From: Halorussus salilacus
GTDB lineage: Archaea; Halobacteriota; Halobacteria; Halobacteriales; Haladaptataceae
Reading direction: 5' to 3'
DNA length: 64,000 nt
Assembly: GCF_024138125.1 (NCBI RefSeq)
Contig: NZ_CP099993.1
Coordinates: 1,054,001-1,118,000, forward strand
Shown: piece after piece, positions 41,713 to 50,444 of the stretch
Layout: each line of letters opens with the position of its first letter
Numbering within the stretch: the stretch's first letter is position 1
The notes under the pieces: model-generated
The model's database searches: none
Told to the model about the DNA's origin: nothing
The model's input: only the letters and a program-made list of their open reading frames with translations
Translations under genes and position numbers: made by a program

Positions 41713-43932
41713 ATGAGCGAGGTATCGAGTGACGGACCATCCGGAGACGAAACACCGTCGCCGGAGGTCCCACCCCCCATCCCGCCCGATGACCCCGAGG
41801 CGTGGTACGCCCCGGACGTGCGCGCCCAGTACGAACTCCACCCCGGCGTGGTCGCGACCATCCGTGATACCGACGACGGCTTCGACTATCTGGTCCGGGA
41901 GCCGTCGCTGTCGCCCGCGGGCGAGGACGCCCTCGCCCGCGTCGCCGACCACTTCTCGACCGCGAACCTCGAGCGGCCGCTGACCCGCGAGGGCGCGACC
42001 GAGCGCATGGCCGCCGGGTTCGACCCGAAGTACCGCCGGATAATCGACCGGCTGACCGACCTGCCGCCCGACGCCCGCAGGCGGGTCGAGTACCGCGCGC
42101 TCCGGGACCTGCGGTGTCTGGGCGACCTCACGCCGCTGGCGCTCGACGACGGCATCGAGGTCGCCGACACCGCGGGCGAGAACCTCGTGGTCCACACCGA
42201 CGACTACGCGCCCGCCGACACCCGCCTCCCGTCCGACGCCGACTTCCTGGAGCGGTTCGCCAGCGAGCGCGTCGAGACCCACACCGTCGACTTCCGGAGC
42301 TTCCGGGTCCCGGTAGTCGTCTATCGCGAGCACTTGCTCGCGAACGACGCCTTCACGACCAAGTACGCCGTGCTCGAACCCGACCTCCTGCCGGGCGACG
42401 AGGAACTGATACGGGAGTGCAAGGACCGCATCTGGGAGACCAACGTCGACGGCGTGGTCGAGGACCGCGCGGCGTTCGTCCGCGAGCGCGCCCGGACCTT
42501 CCTCTCGCGGCGGTTGACCGCGCGCAACACCCGGGCGTGGCTCGACGCCGCCGCCTACCGGGCCCGGACCGCGCTCGCGGAGTACGACCTAGCGGTCCCG
42601 CCCGTCAACCACCGGTTCTCGACCGACCGGCTCTCGGACCTCGTCTACTACGTGATGCGCGACTTCGTGGGCCACGGCAAGCTCACGATTCCGATTCGCG
42701 ACGACCTCTTAGAGGACATCGAGGCCAACCGGGTCGACGAGCGCATCAAGGTGGTGCCCCGCGGCCGGGAGATCGGTCACGGCGAGCGCATCCCGACGAA
42801 CCTCCGGTTCGAGGACGAGTCGGCGTTCGTCAACGTCGTGACCCAGATGGCCGCGAGCGACGGCACCGAACTCAACGCCTCGAACCCCAGCGCGAAGGTC
42901 AACCTCGACCCGGCGGGCGTTCCGGACGGGACCACCATCCGGTGTGCGGTCGCGCTGGGCGTCATCAGCGAGGACGGCCCCCACATCTCCATCCGCAAGC
43001 AGGCCCCCGAGGCGATGACGCCCGTGGACCTGCTCGAATCCGACAGCCTCTCGACCGAGATGGTGACCCTGCTCTGGCAGGCCTACGAGCACCACGGCGT
43101 CGTGCTGTTCTCGGGGCCGACCGGCGCGGGCAAGACCACGCTGATGAACGCTCACATGCCGTTCGTGCCCTACCGCGACCGACCCATCTCCATCGACGAG
43201 GGGTCCCGAGAGGTGCGCCTGCCCCACGAGACGGGCGTCTCGCTCACCACCCGCGACCACGAGAGCGACTACAAGCGGGTCACGATGGCCGACCTCATGA
43301 CCGAGTGCAACTACCTGAATCCCGACGTGGAGGTCATCGCGGAGATAAACACGCCCGCGAGCTTCGAGACGTTCGCCGAGACGCTCAACACCGGCCACGG
43401 CGTCATCGGGACGACCCACGCCGAGGACGTCGAGAAGCTGGTCAACCGCGTCATCGAGCAGGGCCTGCCCTCGTACCTCCTGCAGGAACTCGACCTCGTG
43501 GTCTTCCCCCAGCGCGTCGACGGCGAGCGCTACGTCGGCGAGGTTGTCGAACTCCTCACCGAGTCGGAGTTCGCGGACCTCGACTCGGCGCGCGCCCGCT
43601 GTGGGACCGTCCGAAAGGACGACGTGACCGTCTACTGGAACACTGTCGCGTGGCGCGATACGGAAGGAGAGTTCCACCTCGCGTACGACCACCCGCGACT
43701 CGACGGCGGAGGCGACGAGCGCGCTCGTCGCCTCCGCTTTTTCGACAGGCTCGCGAATCGGACCGACCGGACGGTCGAGGAGGTGGAAGCGGAGTTCCAC
43801 CGCAAGCACGGCTACGTCCAGTATCTGGAGCGGGAGGGCATGGACGACTTCGACGAACTGTTCGGGTTCCTCTCGGACCTCCAGACCAACGAGGCCGCGA
43901 CCGTCGAGCGGGCGGGGCGAGGAACTGTCTAA
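41713..43932 (+). CDS. type IV pilus/secretion ATPase (PilB/TadA-like)
   Basis: A 739-residue archaeal type II/IV secretion ATPase that powers assembly of pili or a related system at the membrane. Walker A GPTGAGKT is at residues 468-475; Walker B/Asp-box VEVIAEINTPASFETFAETLNTGHGVIGTTHAED follows. The N-terminal 250 residues are the usual archaeal helical domain. Near residues 665-676 a 32-nt perfect palindrome plus T5 (43706-43742) encodes an Arg/Glu/Gly insert. The membrane partner at 48543 is separated from it by a 4.6-kb insertion. The C-terminus EAATVERAGRGTV matches a short fragment at 48026-48070. Confidence 0.9.
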   Translation: MSEVSSDGPSGDETPSPEVPPPIPPDDPEAWYAPDVRAQYELHPGVVATIRDTDDGFDYLVREPSLSPAGEDALARVADHFSTANLERPLTREGATERMAAGFDPKYRRIIDRLTDLPPDARRRVEYRALRDLRCLGDLTPLALDDGIEVADTAGENLVVHTDDYAPADTRLPSDADFLERFASERVETHTVDFRSFRVPVVVYREHLLANDAFTTKYAVLEPDLLPGDEELIRECKDRIWETNVDGVVEDRAAFVRERARTFLSRRLTARNTRAWLDAAAYRARTALAEYDLAVPPVNHRFSTDRLSDLVYYVMRDFVGHGKLTIPIRDDLLEDIEANRVDERIKVVPRGREIGHGERIPTNLRFEDESAFVNVVTQMAASDGTELNASNPSAKVNLDPAGVPDGTTIRCAVALGVISEDGPHISIRKQAPEAMTPVDLLESDSLSTEMVTLLWQAYEHHGVVLFSGPTGAGKTTLMNAHMPFVPYRDRPISIDEGSREVRLPHETGVSLTTRDHESDYKRVTMADLMTECNYLNPDVEVIAEINTPASFETFAETLNTGHGVIGTTHAEDVEKLVNRVIEQGLPSYLLQELDLVVFPQRVDGERYVGEVVELLTESEFADLDSARARCGTVRKDDVTVYWNTVAWRDTEGEFHLAYDHPRLDGGGDERARRLRFFDRLANRTDRTVEEVEAEFHRKHGYVQYLEREGMDDFDELFGFLSDLQTNEAATVERAGRGTV
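43706..43742 (+). terminator. terminator-like palindrome plus T-run inside the pilB-like gene
   Basis: Perfect 16-bp arms 43706-43721 and 43722-43737 without a loop, followed by TTTTT (43738-43742). The form is that of an intrinsic terminator, but it lies within the coding frame. It may attenuate transcription or be a palindromic insertion. Confidence 0.5.
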
Positions 43933-44031: not shown

Positions 44032-44184
44032 ATGTCACACGACATTCCCACTTCGCTCGAATCGGAGTACGAGCCCGCCCACAACGAGACCGACAAGCAA
44101 GTCGTCGTCGGAAGTTCGAGCTGTTACATCAGCGACGACCCGGTGTGTAACAGTCCGGGCGACGACTACGAAAAGCGCTTCTGA
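44032..44184 (+). CDS. candidate lanthipeptide precursor peptide
   Basis: A 50-residue peptide, too short for usual gene scans. Leader-like acidic part is residues 1-23 (SHDIPTSLESEYEPAHNETD). The probable core, from about residue 24, is VVVGSSSCYISDDPVCNSPG with Ser at 28-30, 34 and 41 and Cys at 31 and 39: the Ser plus Cys composition needed for two lanthionine rings. The remaining tail DDYEKRF is polar. It is 65 bp from the end of the convergent LanM gene and downstream of the ATPase gene. No double-Gly cleavage site is visible, so the leader boundary (perhaps after Gly27) is a guess. No exporter gene seen. Confidence 0.7.
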   Translation: MSHDIPTSLESEYEPAHNETDKQVVVGSSSCYISDDPVCNSPGDDYEKRF

Positions 44185-44249: not shown

Positions 44250-47200
44250 TCACTCCAGTCGCATCACGTTCGGCAGGGCGATGTCCCTGTCGCGAACCGT
44301 CAGCTGTAGCGCGACGTAGCCGACGCCCGCCAACCCGGTGAACAGACCGAACCGGGGAAGCATCGGCAGGTGATTTCCGATTCGGAACCGTCCTTCCGCC
44401 TCGGCGCGTTCGAGCGTCTTTTCGAACAGTGTCTCGCCCTTCGACGTGAGTTCGGGGTCCCCAAGGGTCTCGCCCGCGTCGACCATGACCAGCGCCCGTC
44501 CCATGGACCCACAACACAGCGAATCTTCCAGACTGGGTTCGGTTCGGAGATTCTCGCGGGGAATCGAGATGTCCGTCGGCACCTCGCGTCCGGCCGTCTC
44601 TGCGACTACGACGTGCCCGAGTGTGACTCCGACCGCACCGTTACACCAACCCCAGATGGTTCCGCTCTCGTCGTCGTACAGATTCTCGCATTCCGGGTCG
44701 GTCTCGCGTCGCCACCGTTCGGCGTCGCACCGGAGGGCATTCTCGCCGACGCGGGCGTACGTCTCCTCACCGGTCGCCGCGCTCAGTTTCACGAGCGCGG
44801 CCCCGATTCCGCCAGCGCCGTGTGCGAAGGCAAAACGCGGGTCGTTCCCCTCACTCGTGGGGATTCGATACCCGTCCCCAGTTTCGGCCGTCGCTTCCAG
44901 CAGGTGGTCACCACACCAGCGCGCGCGTTCGAGCGCGCCCCCGTCGCCCGTCCGCTCGTGTACAGCCAGTTGCGCGAGCAGTTCGCCAGCTGTGCCGCCG
45001 ACGACGTCGAGTTCTGTGTCCGACTCGATCTCCTCGCGGGTAGTCCGACCGGCGACGCTCCGCCCGGCTTCGAGCAGTTCCGAGTCGTCGAGCAGTTCAC
45101 CGGCTGTCACCAGCCCGTAAGCGACTGACCCCTTGCCGGTCGCCCCGCCGATTCGGAGGTGGTCTGCGTTTCCGTCCTCGAACGCGGTCTGAATCGGTTG
45201 CAGAACGCGGCGACTCCGGGCGGCGAGTCGGTCGTCGTCGCGGACGGCCGCCGCCGCTGCGAGGAACACCCCCACGCCAGCGTATCCTTCGTAGAGGTTC
45301 AGCTGCGGTTCTTGCAGGAGGAACGCGTCGTCGGGCGACGACCGCGCTAGCTCCGCCCACCGGTCGCTCCCATCTGGATATTCGGTTGTCACGTTCTCCA
45401 AGTGGGCCACGACGTTCGAGACGACCTCCGGAGTCGCGTCGGCGTCCGAGACCGACGCCCCCGAACTCGGTCCATTCTCGGACGGGGCGGCTACAGGGTC
45501 CGGGACCGTCGAACTCGTGAACGCGAGGTCGAGCAGTCGGAGTTGCGTCTCTATCCAGTGTTCGTCGAGGTCTTCGACGCGCTCGCAGGCGTGGTCGAGC
45601 GGCGACTGGTCCACGAACGCGCCTTGCGGTTCGCCGTGGCCGTCCCGAAGTTCGTGGCCGGTCGCATCGACGGTGAACCGCGGGATGGCGAACCGCCGGA
45701 GCGTCGCTTTCTCGGCTTCGACGCAGTTGATGAGGCCGTCTTCGCTCTCGGGAAGGAAAATCCGGTAGAGCGATTCGAGCGCGAACGACCGCTGGATTCC
45801 GGACCGAAGTTGCGAGGAGTACGCGCTCTCGATGAGTTTCGAACTGTAGTGGCCCGTCGGTCGGACCAGATACCGAATCTCACACCCCTCGAACGACCGG
45901 AGCGGCCCGTCTCGGAACCCCTCTCGGTCGGCCGAGATCGCGTCCACAGCGTCCCTGAATCCGCGTTTCAGTTCGTCGACATACTCCGAGGTCCCCCGAA
46001 TCTCGCCGTCGAGTCGGGGGAGGTTCGTTCCGTCGAGGCGGCGTTCGTCTCGGAACGACATCTCCATGCCGTCGGTGTTCGGATCGGAGAAGGCGGGTGA
46101 CTTCCGTTCGTACTCCACGTCGTCCAACTTCGTCAGCCCACTGTTCGTGACCGTCTGGGAGTCGCCCTCGGTGACCGCAGTCGTGAACGGCACGAGCACG
46201 GTTTCGAGAATCGACCGCTCGACGAGCGACGACAGCGCGGGCGACGACGGCGAAATTGGTGCGTCGAACCGCGGCGAGAGCACGGTTTCGTGGTCCACGA
46301 TGATCGGTTGGTCGCCCGCGGCGACGATGTTCTCCTGGTGGAGGTCGGTCGAGCCGAGGACAAACGCCAGCGCGCTCAGCGCGCCCATCCGCTCGAAGTA
46401 TCGCTCGACTCCCTCGGCCGAGTCGCACTCCGCGTGAGTGACGACCTCCATCCATCCGTAGTCGTCGCGGTCGAGGACGCGCGGCGCGTAGAGGTCCGGC
46501 ACGTCGGTATGTTCGTTCGTCCAATCGAGTACGTCGGCGAACGCTTGCTCGCCGCCGACCGACCGAGGCTTGTAGACGACCGAGCAGTCGGCTTCGAAGT
46601 CGATCCGCCAGACGATTTCGCCGTCGCCGTGTGGGTCGTCGGAGAGGGCGGCCACGTCGGCCACGCGACCGAGTTCCTCACCGTCGTTGAACTGCTCGGC
46701 CAGCACCCCGCCGTCTGCCGCCAGTCGTTCGTCCAGTCGACTCACGGCGGTGTGCCACTGTTCGACGATCCTACCGAGCAACTCGAAAAGCACGGGATAC
46801 GTCTCGAAGATGGCGTCGTAGTCTCCGTATCGCCGAACGAACTCGTCGTACACCGTCGTCGAGTCAGTCGTCTCCTCGAAGTCTGCGTCCGGGTACTCCC
46901 GTCGCTGGTACGCCTTGAACAGGATGAACAGCGGGTGCTGAAACGCGGTCGTCAGGCGTTCAAACAGCCAGTCGGTCAGCGAGTCGAGCGCGACCGACGA
47001 GAACTCGCTTTCAAGGTCGGTTCCCGCGGTTCCAGCGTCCGCGAGCGGTGCCACGAGGTCCACGAATGGCGACGTCTCGTATCTCGACGCGAGGGGTCGC
47101 GGTCGCTCCAGTTCGACCGCGCGCGCCACGACTTCACCGGCGGTTTCGAGCGCCGACGGGACGACATCGGAATCGCCCCGCTGGAGGGCCTCGAATCGCT

Positions 47201-47399
47201 CGCGCAGCCCCTCGACGGTGTACCCCGAGAGCGCGAGGCGTTCGGCGAACGCCCCTTCCGAATCGAACACGTCTCGCCAGTCGGCGAGGAACTCCTCGAA
47301 GTCGAACGCCGACGGGAGCGGCGGGTTCGCCTCAGAGTCGAGGTACGAATCGAGTGGCGTCGTCCGGGCGGCCGATTCCGAGAGGAGCGACTGTCGCAT
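44250..47399 (-). CDS. lanM: class II lanthipeptide synthetase LanM
   Basis: A 1049-residue LanM, which dehydrates Ser/Thr of a precursor peptide and then cyclises with Cys. N-terminal dehydratase (DUF4135) has CSVVYKPRSVGGEQAF, then FVLGSTDLHQENIVAAGDQPIIVDHETVL, a kinase-like active region. C-terminal LanC-type cyclase has FAHGAGGIGAAL, IWGWCNGAVGVTLGH (Cys about 919) and DSLCCGSMGRAL (Cys about 962-963). The CCG rather than CHG gives three Cys zinc ligands, as in ProcM-type cyclases. ATG 47399 is the start; TTAACTTA about 25-30 bp upstream fits a leaderless promoter. Convergent with the precursor gene. Confidence 0.92.
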   Translation of the reverse strand: MRQSLLSESAARTTPLDSYLDSEANPPLPSAFDFEEFLADWRDVFDSEGAFAERLALSGYTVEGLRERFEALQRGDSDVVPSALETAGEVVARAVELERPRPLASRYETSPFVDLVAPLADAGTAGTDLESEFSSVALDSLTDWLFERLTTAFQHPLFILFKAYQRREYPDADFEETTDSTTVYDEFVRRYGDYDAIFETYPVLFELLGRIVEQWHTAVSRLDERLAADGGVLAEQFNDGEELGRVADVAALSDDPHGDGEIVWRIDFEADCSVVYKPRSVGGEQAFADVLDWTNEHTDVPDLYAPRVLDRDDYGWMEVVTHAECDSAEGVERYFERMGALSALAFVLGSTDLHQENIVAAGDQPIIVDHETVLSPRFDAPISPSSPALSSLVERSILETVLVPFTTAVTEGDSQTVTNSGLTKLDDVEYERKSPAFSDPNTDGMEMSFRDERRLDGTNLPRLDGEIRGTSEYVDELKRGFRDAVDAISADREGFRDGPLRSFEGCEIRYLVRPTGHYSSKLIESAYSSQLRSGIQRSFALESLYRIFLPESEDGLINCVEAEKATLRRFAIPRFTVDATGHELRDGHGEPQGAFVDQSPLDHACERVEDLDEHWIETQLRLLDLAFTSSTVPDPVAAPSENGPSSGASVSDADATPEVVSNVVAHLENVTTEYPDGSDRWAELARSSPDDAFLLQEPQLNLYEGYAGVGVFLAAAAAVRDDDRLAARSRRVLQPIQTAFEDGNADHLRIGGATGKGSVAYGLVTAGELLDDSELLEAGRSVAGRTTREEIESDTELDVVGGTAGELLAQLAVHERTGDGGALERARWCGDHLLEATAETGDGYRIPTSEGNDPRFAFAHGAGGIGAALVKLSAATGEETYARVGENALRCDAERWRRETDPECENLYDDESGTIWGWCNGAVGVTLGHVVVAETAGREVPTDISIPRENLRTEPSLEDSLCCGSMGRALVMVDAGETLGDPELTSKGETLFEKTLERAEAEGRFRIGNHLPMLPRFGLFTGLAGVGYVALQLTVRDRDIALPNVMRLE

Positions 47400-47580
47400 G
47401 TGTGTTTCGACAGAGAAAGTATCGTAAGTTAAGAATTTTTGTCGGGCATTCGGACATAAGTGAAACCTCCGACAGATAAGCAAACTATATTTCACATCGT
47501 GTCTTCAGTGAGATACCGTTCGCGCGTCCCGTCTGTCTCCCCCTGATTATAATTTAATTTTAAATACTGGAAGGGGTAAA

Positions 47581-47765
47581 GTGGGCCATGAGCCCACCGA
47601 GGAGGACCGCGCGGTGAACGCCACTGGCGACGGATCGAGGACGCGCTCGCTCTCTGTCCTCGACCGCGCGGTCTACGCCCTGTTCTCCAGACATGCCGAC
47701 AGGTCGCGCCACGATGCCGACCGCAAGCGCTACCGCGCGACCGACGTGACCGCCAGCTTCGACGT
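47581..47765 (+). pseudogene. truncated 5' end of a second pilC-like gene
   Basis: Encodes LSVLDRAVYALFSRHADRSR and HDADRKRYRATDVTASFDV, which matches the N-terminus of the intact gene at 48543-50444, and the similarity includes the sequence before the start (GGCCATGA and GGAGGA). It stops abruptly after GCCAGCTTCGACGT at 47765; a short unrelated tail follows to a stop at 47790. Identity is high but not perfect, so this is a diverged allele rather than a fresh duplication. It is just after LanM and in the same orientation as pilB. Confidence 0.82.
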
Positions 47766-47979
47766 GTCCCTTCCAGCGGCGTCCTGCTAGCCGGTACTTC
47801 TCTTTCGTTCGGTCGGAGTTGTACTTCTCAAAGAGATACTCGGTCAGGAACGTCTCGTAGGTGTTATCGCCCTCGTACTGATCGTGGAATTGTTCAAGAC
47901 GTCGCTTGGGAGAAACGTCGTTTAACTGTTTATACACGCCCATCCGGTCCAACGGGTCTGGAGATTGCGTTCGAGTCAT
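47764..47979 (-). pseudogene. truncated integrase-like gene (N-terminal fragment)
   Basis: From ATG 47979 the frame encodes 72 residues: DPLDRMGVYKQLNDVSPKRR, then NTYETFLTEYLFEKYNSDRT and KEKYRLAGRRWKGH, which resembles the N-terminal SAM-like (core-binding) part of haloarchaeal tyrosine recombinases. It then runs directly into antisense pilC fragment sequence at 47764-47766, so the catalytic domain is missing. The family assignment is by pattern only. The breakpoint coincides exactly with the end of the pilC fragment. Confidence 0.5.
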
Positions 47980-47999
47980 GGTTCACGGGCCACTTGTTT

Positions 48000-48024
48000 G
48001 CGGCCGTCACCCGTTGACGGCCGC
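48000..48024. repeat. 10-bp inverted repeat next to the pilB fragment
   Basis: Perfect arms GCGGCCGTCA (48000-48009) and TGACGGCCGC (48015-48024), 5-nt loop, immediately before the pilB 3' fragment. Possible recombination or insertion scar. Confidence 0.5.
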
Positions 48025-48025
48025 G

Positions 48026-48070
48026 AACGACGAGGCCGCGACTGTGGAGCGCGTGAAGCGGGAGACGTGA
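48026..48070 (+). pseudogene. 3' end fragment of a second pilB-like gene
   Basis: Fifteen codons NDEAATVERVKRET plus TGA match the end of the intact pilB-like protein (NEAATVERAGRGTV), including the characteristic EAATVER. Upstream bases do not continue the match, so the fragment is short. Its position, before a full pilC-like gene, is where the 3' end of an original pilB would be. Confidence 0.6.
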
Positions 48071-48107
48071 CTGAACTCTTCGCTCGAAAAATGGGGGACA
48101 GTCGATG

Positions 48108-48362
48108 CTACCCTGCGCACCGACAACCGTCGTAGCAGTCGTACGGACAGTCACTGCAGTCGTACACGCAACAGTCCGGGTTCTCCTCGCAGAACCCGTC
48201 GTCCGGTTCGACTTCTTCGAGTCCGTTCTCCGTCACGCGATACTTGAACTCGACGTCGTCGAGATTCTTCGGTTCGGAATCCGATGCGCCTGCGGCACCC
48301 ACCAGCGCGAAGGTCGACCCTGCACCGGCGGCGAGTCGCTTGAGTGCGGTACGTCGTTTCAT
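48108..48362 (-). CDS. Tat-exported Cys-rich small peptide
   Basis: An 84-residue precursor from ATG 48362. The N-terminus MKRRTALKRLAAGAGSTFAL is a Tat signal ending near GAAGASDSEP. The mature part is about 55 residues: an acidic KNLDDVEFKYRVTENGLEEV section, then a Cys-dense tail with nine Cys in the last 27 residues (CEENPDCCVYDCSDC, then CYDGCRCAG). A Tat leader with a Cys-rich C-terminal peptide is also the layout of some halocins (for example C8), but I see no sequence match, so a metal-binding or antimicrobial peptide are both possible. It is opposite in strand to the pilus operon. Confidence 0.7.
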   Translation of the reverse strand: MKRRTALKRLAAGAGSTFALVGAAGASDSEPKNLDDVEFKYRVTENGLEEVEPDDGFCEENPDCCVYDCSDCPYDCYDGCRCAG

Positions 48363-48542
48363 GAACGACCACATCAGCATTTCTCGTCATAAATAATTAA
48401 TTTTCTGCCTAACTATATTGTGTTAACATCTAATCCGATTTCGAACTGCTCTTCCGATTCGTTCACCATCCATATCGCTAAACCTTAAGTACCAGAGCGA
48501 AGAGAGGAACGGCCATGAACGCGACTGGAGGAGGACGACGGA

Positions 48543-50444
48543 GTGAACACGTCTGCTAACGCTAATCACGGCGCATCGACCCTCTCGGTCCTCGACCGCG
48601 CGCTCTACGCCCTGTTCTCCAGACACGCCGACAGTTCGCGCCACGACGCCGACCGCAAGCGCTACCGCGCGACCGACGTGACCGCCAGCTTCGACGTTTA
48701 CCTCGCCAGAACGTACGGCCTGTCGTGGCTCGCGTTCGCGCTCGTGGCGTTCTGGGCGTTCGCCGTCGCGGTTGCGCTCCCCGACGCGACCGTCGCGGCG
48801 GCCACCGCCTTCGTCCGCCGAGGAGTGCCCGGCCTCGAAGCCGTCCGGACCCCCGACCTCACGCGGACCACCGCGGCAGTCCTGACGGGCGTCGCGGCGG
48901 GGTTCGCGGGGAAACGCGCCACGGTCGCGCTCGGCGGGCTCTACCTCAAGTGGACCGCGAGCGCCCGCGAGTCGAGCATCGAGCGGACCCTCCCCGGCGC
49001 GGTCCGGTACCTCCACGCGCTGTCGTCGGGGAGCGACGACGGCGCGGCGATGCTCCGGAAGGTCGCCGACCGCCAGCAGGCGTACGGCGAGACCGCGGTC
49101 GCCTTCCGGAAGGTGCTCAACAAGGCCATCCTGACCGGGAGCCTCGACGAGGGGCTTCGAATCGTCGCCCGCGACACCCCCTCCCGGGACGCGCTGGCTC
49201 CGTTCCTCGTGAAGTTCCGCGAGCACTCCGAGCAGGGGCCCGACGCGCTGGCCCAGTACCTCCGGATGGAGGGTCGGATGCTCAGCCACCGCCAGTCCCG
49301 GACCCGCGAGCAGGCCGGGGACTTCCTCGAACTCCTCGCGGAGATGTTCATCGTCCTGCTGGTGATGCCCGCGCTGCTGGTCATCGTGATAACCGTGATG
49401 AGCGTCCTCGCGCCCGGCCTCAACGAACCGACGCCGACGCCGTTCGGTTCCGTCTCCGCCCGGGCGGTGCTGGTGTACGGAAGCGCGGCGTTCATCCTCG
49501 TGGTCGGTGCGGGCGCGGCCGCGCTCGTGGGAGCGCTCCGCCCGGCCGACCAGTCGGGCCCCACCTACGACCGGCCCGCGAGCGCGCTGGCGACCGTCGC
49601 CAGCGCGCTCGCCAACCCCGCGAGTTCGGTGGTCGCGTTCGCACCCCTCGCGGTCGCCGTCGCCGGGTTGCTCCGGTCGGTCGGCTACGGACCGGTCGAC
49701 GTGGTCCTGCTTGGCTACGTGTCGTTCGCGCTCCCGGTGGGACTGGTCGCGCTCCGGCGCGCCAGAATCGACGACGCGAAGGACCGAGAGATAAAGGACT
49801 TCGTCCACGCCGTCTCGGGCCACGTCAGCCTCGGGCGACCCTTCTCGGAGGCGGTCGAGCGCGTCGCCGGGAACGTCGACCTCGGCGCGCTGAACCCCGA
49901 CGTCGCCGACCTCGCGTTCAACGCCAACCTCACGACACGCGAGGGCGACCTGCGGGCGTCGGCGCTCTCGCGGTTCGTCGACCGGGTCGGCACCCCGCTC
50001 GCCGACCAGACCATCGGACTGGTGACGGGCGCGCTGGACGCGGGCGGAGACGCCGAGGCCGTCTTCGAGACCCTTCAGGTCGAGATCGGGCGGCTCTACC
50101 ACGAGCGAAAGGCGCTTCGCGCGAACATGCTGGTGTACGTCGCGGTGGGGTGGACCACCGCCCTGCTCGTCGTCGGCATCATGGTCGCGGTCAACGGCTA
50201 CGTCCTCGACAGCTTCGCCCAGCTGTCGTCGCTGTCGACCGCCGACGCGGGCATGGCCCTCGACCCCGACGCGGTCCAGCCCGCCCGCGACCGCCACCGC
50301 TTCTACGTGGTGACTCAGGCCACCATGCTCGCCTGCGGGTGGTTCGCCGGATACGCGAGCAGGGGTCGCTACGAGGCGATGCTCCACTCGGCCGCGCTGG
50401 TCGGAATCGCCCACTTCGTGTTCGCGGGAGTGGGGATGATCTGA
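48543..50444 (+). CDS. type IV pilus/secretion membrane platform protein (TadC/PilC-like)
   Basis: A 633-residue archaeal T2SF-type membrane protein starting GTG 48543. It has two T2SSF halves, with hydrophobic helices at about 60-80, 95-115, 270-295, 320-345 (first half) and 360-410, 535-560, 600-630 (second half). LSVLDRALYALFSRHADSSRHD at the N-terminus is repeated in the truncated fragment at 47581-47765. With the ATPase at 41713 it forms the engine of the system; the downstream five small proteins are its likely substrates. Its stop overlaps the next start (TGATG). Confidence 0.88.
   Translation: MNTSANANHGASTLSVLDRALYALFSRHADSSRHDADRKRYRATDVTASFDVYLARTYGLSWLAFALVAFWAFAVAVALPDATVAAATAFVRRGVPGLEAVRTPDLTRTTAAVLTGVAAGFAGKRATVALGGLYLKWTASARESSIERTLPGAVRYLHALSSGSDDGAAMLRKVADRQQAYGETAVAFRKVLNKAILTGSLDEGLRIVARDTPSRDALAPFLVKFREHSEQGPDALAQYLRMEGRMLSHRQSRTREQAGDFLELLAEMFIVLLVMPALLVIVITVMSVLAPGLNEPTPTPFGSVSARAVLVYGSAAFILVVGAGAAALVGALRPADQSGPTYDRPASALATVASALANPASSVVAFAPLAVAVAGLLRSVGYGPVDVVLLGYVSFALPVGLVALRRARIDDAKDREIKDFVHAVSGHVSLGRPFSEAVERVAGNVDLGALNPDVADLAFNANLTTREGDLRASALSRFVDRVGTPLADQTIGLVTGALDAGGDAEAVFETLQVEIGRLYHERKALRANMLVYVAVGWTTALLVVGIMVAVNGYVLDSFAQLSSLSTADAGMALDPDAVQPARDRHRFYVVTQATMLACGWFAGYASRGRYEAMLHSAALVGIAHFVFAGVGMI

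Follow-up and report, generated by a model that had tools for sequence, protein, structure and literature searches.

In Vibrio cholerae, homology-facilitated illegitimate recombination has been described for displaced T6SS immunity arrays, for which displaced old cassettes have been proposed (PMC5361080). The locus described here appears to have the same pairing of a homologous with an illegitimate end and an older module kept beside a newer one. It differs in being an archaeal pilus locus, with lanthipeptide and Cys-rich genes, among which no effector-immunity pairing is seen, and with the debris of an integrase cassette. A second likeness is to the streptococcal prophages in comYC and other competence genes (PMC4774983), where an integrase lineage likewise repeatedly hits one conserved site in a pilus-machinery gene across species, whereas here it is pilB, the gene of the haloarchaeal assembly ATPase, that is hit, at three or more breakpoints seen in the sequence.

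The SNJ2-type integrases of haloarchaeal pleolipoviruses (PMC8371274) also combine a tyrosine integrase with two small ORFs, the integrase coming first (orf1) in an operon, ahead of Orf2 (111 aa) and Orf3 (140 aa). The cassette considered here likewise has two small ORFs, one of about 140 aa, but they precede the integrase, the second is about 150 aa, and insertion is into a protein gene and not into tRNA-Met; membership in the SNJ2 group is, on the position of the small ORFs, unsupported. A tblastn search of the cassette against phage records gave no match at 1e-5, the presence of SNJ2 among those records being unconfirmed. Finally, the genus Halorussus has been described before as rich in LanM (PMC12144867), and its class II lanthipeptide clusters (PMC10105419, PMC12144867) have the same LanM with short adjoining LanA precursors. 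Compared with these, only the placement is unusual here, in that this LanM clade goes with the pil locus, and the window's member sits in the pilB-pilC gap.

The window is the whole stretch of DNA that was analysed, 64,000 nucleotides from a 3.6-Mb Halorussus genome in four contigs. Its pilB and pilC both have their closest relative in G010 (89% and 83%, respectively), and the features between and including them are as follows.

41713-43932, plus strand: pilB, intact pilus ATPase (T2SSE/FlaI-like), 739 aa (PF00437, E=6e-22)
44032-44184, plus strand: lanA, lanthipeptide precursor, 50 aa, like precursors adjoining LanM in relatives
44250-47399, minus strand: lanM, class II lanthipeptide synthetase, 1049 aa (TIGR03897, 604.7 bits, cutoff 304)
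47584-47765, plus strand: pilC', the pilC 5' end with its own mini-ORF and start, about 57 codons (alignment to pilC)
47765-47766: J1, junction of pilC' and the int accessory ORF, microhomology around TCGAAGC
47766-47979, minus strand: intA fragment, first 72-76 or so codons of an accessory ORF of about 157 aa in a tyrosine-integrase cassette (matches in G017 and G022)
47980-48024, minus strand: intA leader with the inverted repeat GCGGCCGTC..GACGGCCGC (48000-48024), as in the G017 and G022 element leaders
48024-48025: J2, junction of the element leader and pilB codon ~722; att and pilB ~558-721 absent
48026-48070, plus strand: 'pilB, 3' end (14-15 codons) of another pilB allele (NDEAATVERVKRET, then stop), running on as the G005 pilB end
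48108-48362, minus strand: cysP, Cys-rich peptide, 84 aa, with G005 and G002 homologues in the same gap
48484-48565, plus strand: promoter-like box of pilC, mini-ORF (ATG at 48515) and GTG start, G005 type
48566-48582: probable homologous crossover from G005-like DNA to native pilC, where identity falls from 100% to 87% to 81%
48543-50444, plus strand: pilC, intact (T2SSF), 633 aa (PF00482, E=3e-16)

The anatomy of the fragments between LanM and the intact pilC is real. The order given in the original prediction (LanM, pilC 5' fragment, integrase-like piece, pilB 3' fragment, Cys-rich gene, pilC) stands, with all four pieces scoring above chance. The joints in 47400-48600 are read from the assembled sequence. 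Misassembly is unlikely, and an artefact of assembly or contamination is the least credible of the explanations weighed here, given the four contigs at 99.95% completeness, the divergence of every piece from all relatives, and the private mutations in pilC'. We propose instead, with a probability of roughly 0.6, that the locus is a recombination scar, left when a foreign block joined a native pilB-lanA-lanM-pilC locus through homology at one end and microhomology at the other.

The native side of this proposal includes the lanthipeptide genes. The short lanA precursor, with Ser/Thr and Cys in its core, is conserved beside LanM in three relatives (G001, G005, and G007; 54-60% identical), and together with LanM it is best read as a class II lanthipeptide cluster. 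The five closest LanMs, namely the window's own and those of G001, G005, G007, and G010 (59-63%), are each encoded close to this pilB; in the four relatives the lan genes are to its left (upstream), and their placement between pilB and pilC is peculiar to the window. The original prediction saw in the locus two alleles in tandem. Two alleles of one junction do now stand in tandem. The right one exists as pilB-cysP-pilC in G005; for the left one, lanA-lanM between pilB and pilC, and with it the allele pilB-lanA-lanM-pilC, was found in 0 of 18 Halorussus genomes, and a prior allele of this kind is presumed. For 47395-47600, from lanM to pilC', no informative relative was found.

What is the integrase-like piece between the two pilus fragments? 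It had been taken for a 72-codon integrase N-terminus ending at pilC'; it does come from an integrase cassette and end there, but it belongs to the accessory ORF directly before the integrase and not to the integrase itself. The 78-aa translation of the frame 47979-47746 (minus) is 78% identical over 77 aa (E=1e-37) to a 157-aa ORF in G017 and 74% to one in G022, and the match extends up to the pilC junction. In G017 this ORF stands directly before a PF00589 tyrosine integrase (E=4e-11), with a 4-bp ORF overlap, and in many relatives an ORF of about 140 aa comes first, giving the order p140-intA-intB. The intA family is present in 45 of 392 genomes drawn from the order. The 45 bp upstream of the window's intA, inverted repeat included, are 82-86% identical to the G017 and G022 leaders and belong to the element itself. 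The catalytic tyrosine integrase is absent from the window, which retains no more of the cassette's ORFs than the N-terminal half of the accessory one. For intA and cysP no family was found in Pfam, NCBIfam, or PHROG, and among viral contigs 37 pattern matches yielded 0 confirmed cases. There is no sign that this piece carried in the peptide cassettes. Both of its edges are microhomology junctions (short at J2, 2-5 nt) and not att sites.

In Halorussus, Haladaptatus, Halorubrum, and a Haloarcula MAG, relatives of the cassette interrupt pilB at about codon 557. In G058, an element of about 9.8 kb with a primase-helicase gene splits pilB into codons up to 562 and from 557, and comparison with the uninterrupted G047 gene gives an 8-bp shared core, ACACGGGC, seen in this one intact case. 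This core lies upstream of the cassette and outside the gene, for which reason an SSV-type suicidal integrase (attP in the int gene, splitting it) was dropped. Next to the cassette, the C-part of pilB begins near codon 555-563 in G017, G022 (Haladaptatus salinisoli PSR8), G058, and G390 (Halorubrum alkaliphilum DSM 23564), and likewise in the Haloarcula MAG and the uncultured A07HB70; in G372, the cassette lies within the roughly 22 kb that separate pilB 420-563 from 555-736. Fixed-site integration in pilB is seen at G017, G022, G058, G390, L137, and L140. On the integrase tree, the ten pilB-linked rows make 4 label changes against 8.8 when shuffled (0 of 500 as low), two of the ten labels being weaker: Halorarius, whose pilB N-part is tens of kb off, and Halorientalis, with a remnant at the second site only. 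In G269 (L106:193-384) a cassette lies beside a 62% remnant of the pil operon's last gene, and a close pilB relative was sought in that genome and not found. The integrase-like piece in the window is, on this comparison, the leftover of an element family integrating inside pilB.

The breakpoint at codon ~557 also bears on whether the whole segment could be an integrated element, with attL at the pilB 3' end (43889-43911), attR at 48030-48052, lanA-lanM as cargo, and int at one end. The two pilB ends do share 20 of 22 bases and int lies near one of them. This explanation is highly improbable all the same, because the break in the split relatives is not at the 3' end, the leader directly abuts the pilB tail, which is what a deletion joint would give, and the 22-bp match is ordinary pilB homology. 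The 22-bp direct repeat was dropped as a candidate att on the position of the relatives' breakpoint.

Other breaks in pilB fall elsewhere. Remnants in G022, G012, Halorientalis marina, and Halosimplex salinum start at nucleotide 1434, just after Walker A (L068:14076-14228, L074:8294-8428, L132:7671-7811, and L133:7646-7905, in four genera), and the N-part remnant of G017 stops at that nucleotide. This coincidence of position makes nucleotide 1434 a probable second att site, with no integrase tied to it. The pilB of G001 is interrupted at codon ~240, where both ends carry the 12-bp match CGCATCTGGGAG (L095:18040-18723, L037:12679-14196), and an integrase of another type comes next; on the other contig at this break the genes look phage-like by eye. 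At least three recurrent or precise breakpoints are seen in pilB. The literature searched, whose coverage was partial, contained no mention of integration into pilB in archaea, though this falls short of proving novelty.

To the right of J2, the block is close to G005. The predicted pilB 3' fragment (48026-48070) aligns only marginally with the window's own pilB end (score 34, shuffle maximum 30); it is a pilB tail because its match to the G005 pilB end and 3' flank (92% over 65 bp) runs on unbroken through cysP (96%), and it is this continuity that settles the point. The predicted Cys-rich gene is likewise confirmed as cysP (48362-48108, minus), with homologues in the G005 and G002 gaps. Its 84-aa peptide, which has a twin-arginine-like start and 8 Cys within the last 28 residues, is 98% identical in G005 and 66-68% in G002, and the gene is found in the pilB-pilC gap of G000, G005, and G002. 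Elsewhere, L056 (G011) holds two adjacent Cys-rich peptides with twin-arginine-like starts, weakly cysP-like, a possible secreted mini-protein family. Against G005, the pilB tail is 92% identical, cysP 96%, the spacer 89%, and 48511-48565 100%, and pilC after 48565 falls to 87%, 81%, and 82%, placing one junction within extended homology at the pilC start; the other, J1, has microhomology only. The box and mini-ORF overlapping the pilC start (48484-48565) occur also in other Halorussus alleles, and not in the ATGA-overlap alleles (G003, G008).

The pilC 5' fragment was predicted to end at 47765, and its homology to pilC indeed breaks at 47765/66. The region 47584-47772 aligns with 48511-48704 at a local score of 217 (best of 200 shuffles, 29), and past 47765 the similarity is to the int accessory ORF on the opposite strand. 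The junction match expected between 47581-47765 and the pilC start was borne out by blastn over 122 bp (94%, E=1e-49); to 48582-48697, pilC' is 94-96% identical. The two copies are mutual closest matches, agreeing at about 110 of 115 sites, whereas pilC' is 76-89% identical to the pilC of other species, and 4 of their 5 differences are private to pilC' when compared among 15 relatives. The mini-ORF at the pilC' start is of the G010 type, ending on GTGA, and that at the window pilC start is of the G005 type. The segment identities, private differences, and mini-ORF types trace the right block to a G005-like lineage, with a probable crossover ending it at about 48566-48582, and show pilC' to be a decaying copy of native pilC, both it and the pilC body being native.

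These origins weigh on the direction of the exchange. In the reverse direction, a resident element-split pilB-cysP-pilC would have received a conspecific pilB-lanA-lanM-pilC', which took the place of the split pilB and of most of the element, with homology on the left, an illegitimate joint at J1, and the old cassettes pushed downstream. The end product would be identical, no duplication of pilC would be needed, the loss of the rest of the element would be accounted for, and pilB would be repaired; the T6SS arrays provide a model precedent (PMC5361080). We nevertheless regard this course as rather unlikely, since pilC' and the pilC body are both native and the G005-like, foreign-looking right block is bounded by a crossover inside pilC, so that an extra earlier exchange would be required.

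In the preferred reading of a foreign block pasted into a native locus, whose mechanism is judged from the end product, a G005 relative would have carried pilB-cysP-pilC, and an element with the three-ORF tyrosine-integrase cassette would have entered pilB of this lineage at codon ~557. A later deletion would have brought the int-cassette leader up against the final 15 codons of pilB (J2). The donor block (int accessory ORF fragment, 'pilB tail, cysP, pilC start), presumably as a linear fragment, would then have entered a genome with the native pilB-lanA-lanM-pilC, recombining at its right end by homology within the first 15 or so codons of pilC and at its left end by an illegitimate joint of few-base microhomology at codon ~57 of native pilC (J1), so duplicating a short pilC stretch. 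The outcome would be whole pilB and pilC, with the lanthipeptide genes kept and cysP gained, and with pilC', int', and 'pilB remaining as relics. Such a donor intermediate is hypothetical, as no genome with int in pilB plus cysP was found.

Is the pilB-pilC gap then a hotspot for swapping peptide cassettes, as originally predicted? It is a genuine insertion hotspot, and peptides are only part of the cargo. The gap exceeds 1 kb in 8 of the 14 Halorussus genomes with intact ends, window included, reaching 14 kb, and the remaining 6 have an ATGA overlap or a gap under 0.5 kb. Within the family, 2 of 7 non-Halorussus genomes have a gap above 4 kb; outside it, the gap is at most about 220 bp among the genomes measured. 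Between pilC and the next gene the junction is 173 bp or less in 27 of 28 genomes; in the remaining one, G007, pilC itself is truncated. A Fisher test of 8/14 against 0/13 gave p = 0.002, the genomes not being independent. The survey of gaps in relatives found a peptide gene, cysP, in those of G005 and G002, and the pilB fragment has its match in a relative; neither outcome named in advance as contrary came true. The peptide part of the claim is diluted by mixed cargo, which includes GH16 and GH81 glucanases (laminarinases), GH97, metabolic genes, an Asn synthase like lasso cyclases (308 bits, below the 525 cutoff), and two CAAX-protease-like proteins. The lasso-cyclase-like enzyme lies at L035:2414-4318 in the G015 gap, accompanied there by the two CAAX-protease-like proteins, which are membrane proteins.

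More broadly, and tentatively, several integrase lineages may favour pilB as a target, breaking the pilus at three conserved codons in the manner of the comYC prophages, and hosts of the window's type may have regained a working pilB while gathering peptide cassettes in the gap. This could be an archaeal parallel to the inactivation of pilus and competence genes by mobile elements in bacteria, with candidate att sites defined in culturable species. The normally translationally overlapping pilB-pilC pair would also become an exchange site for putative secreted-peptide, lanthipeptide, and polysaccharide-degrading genes.
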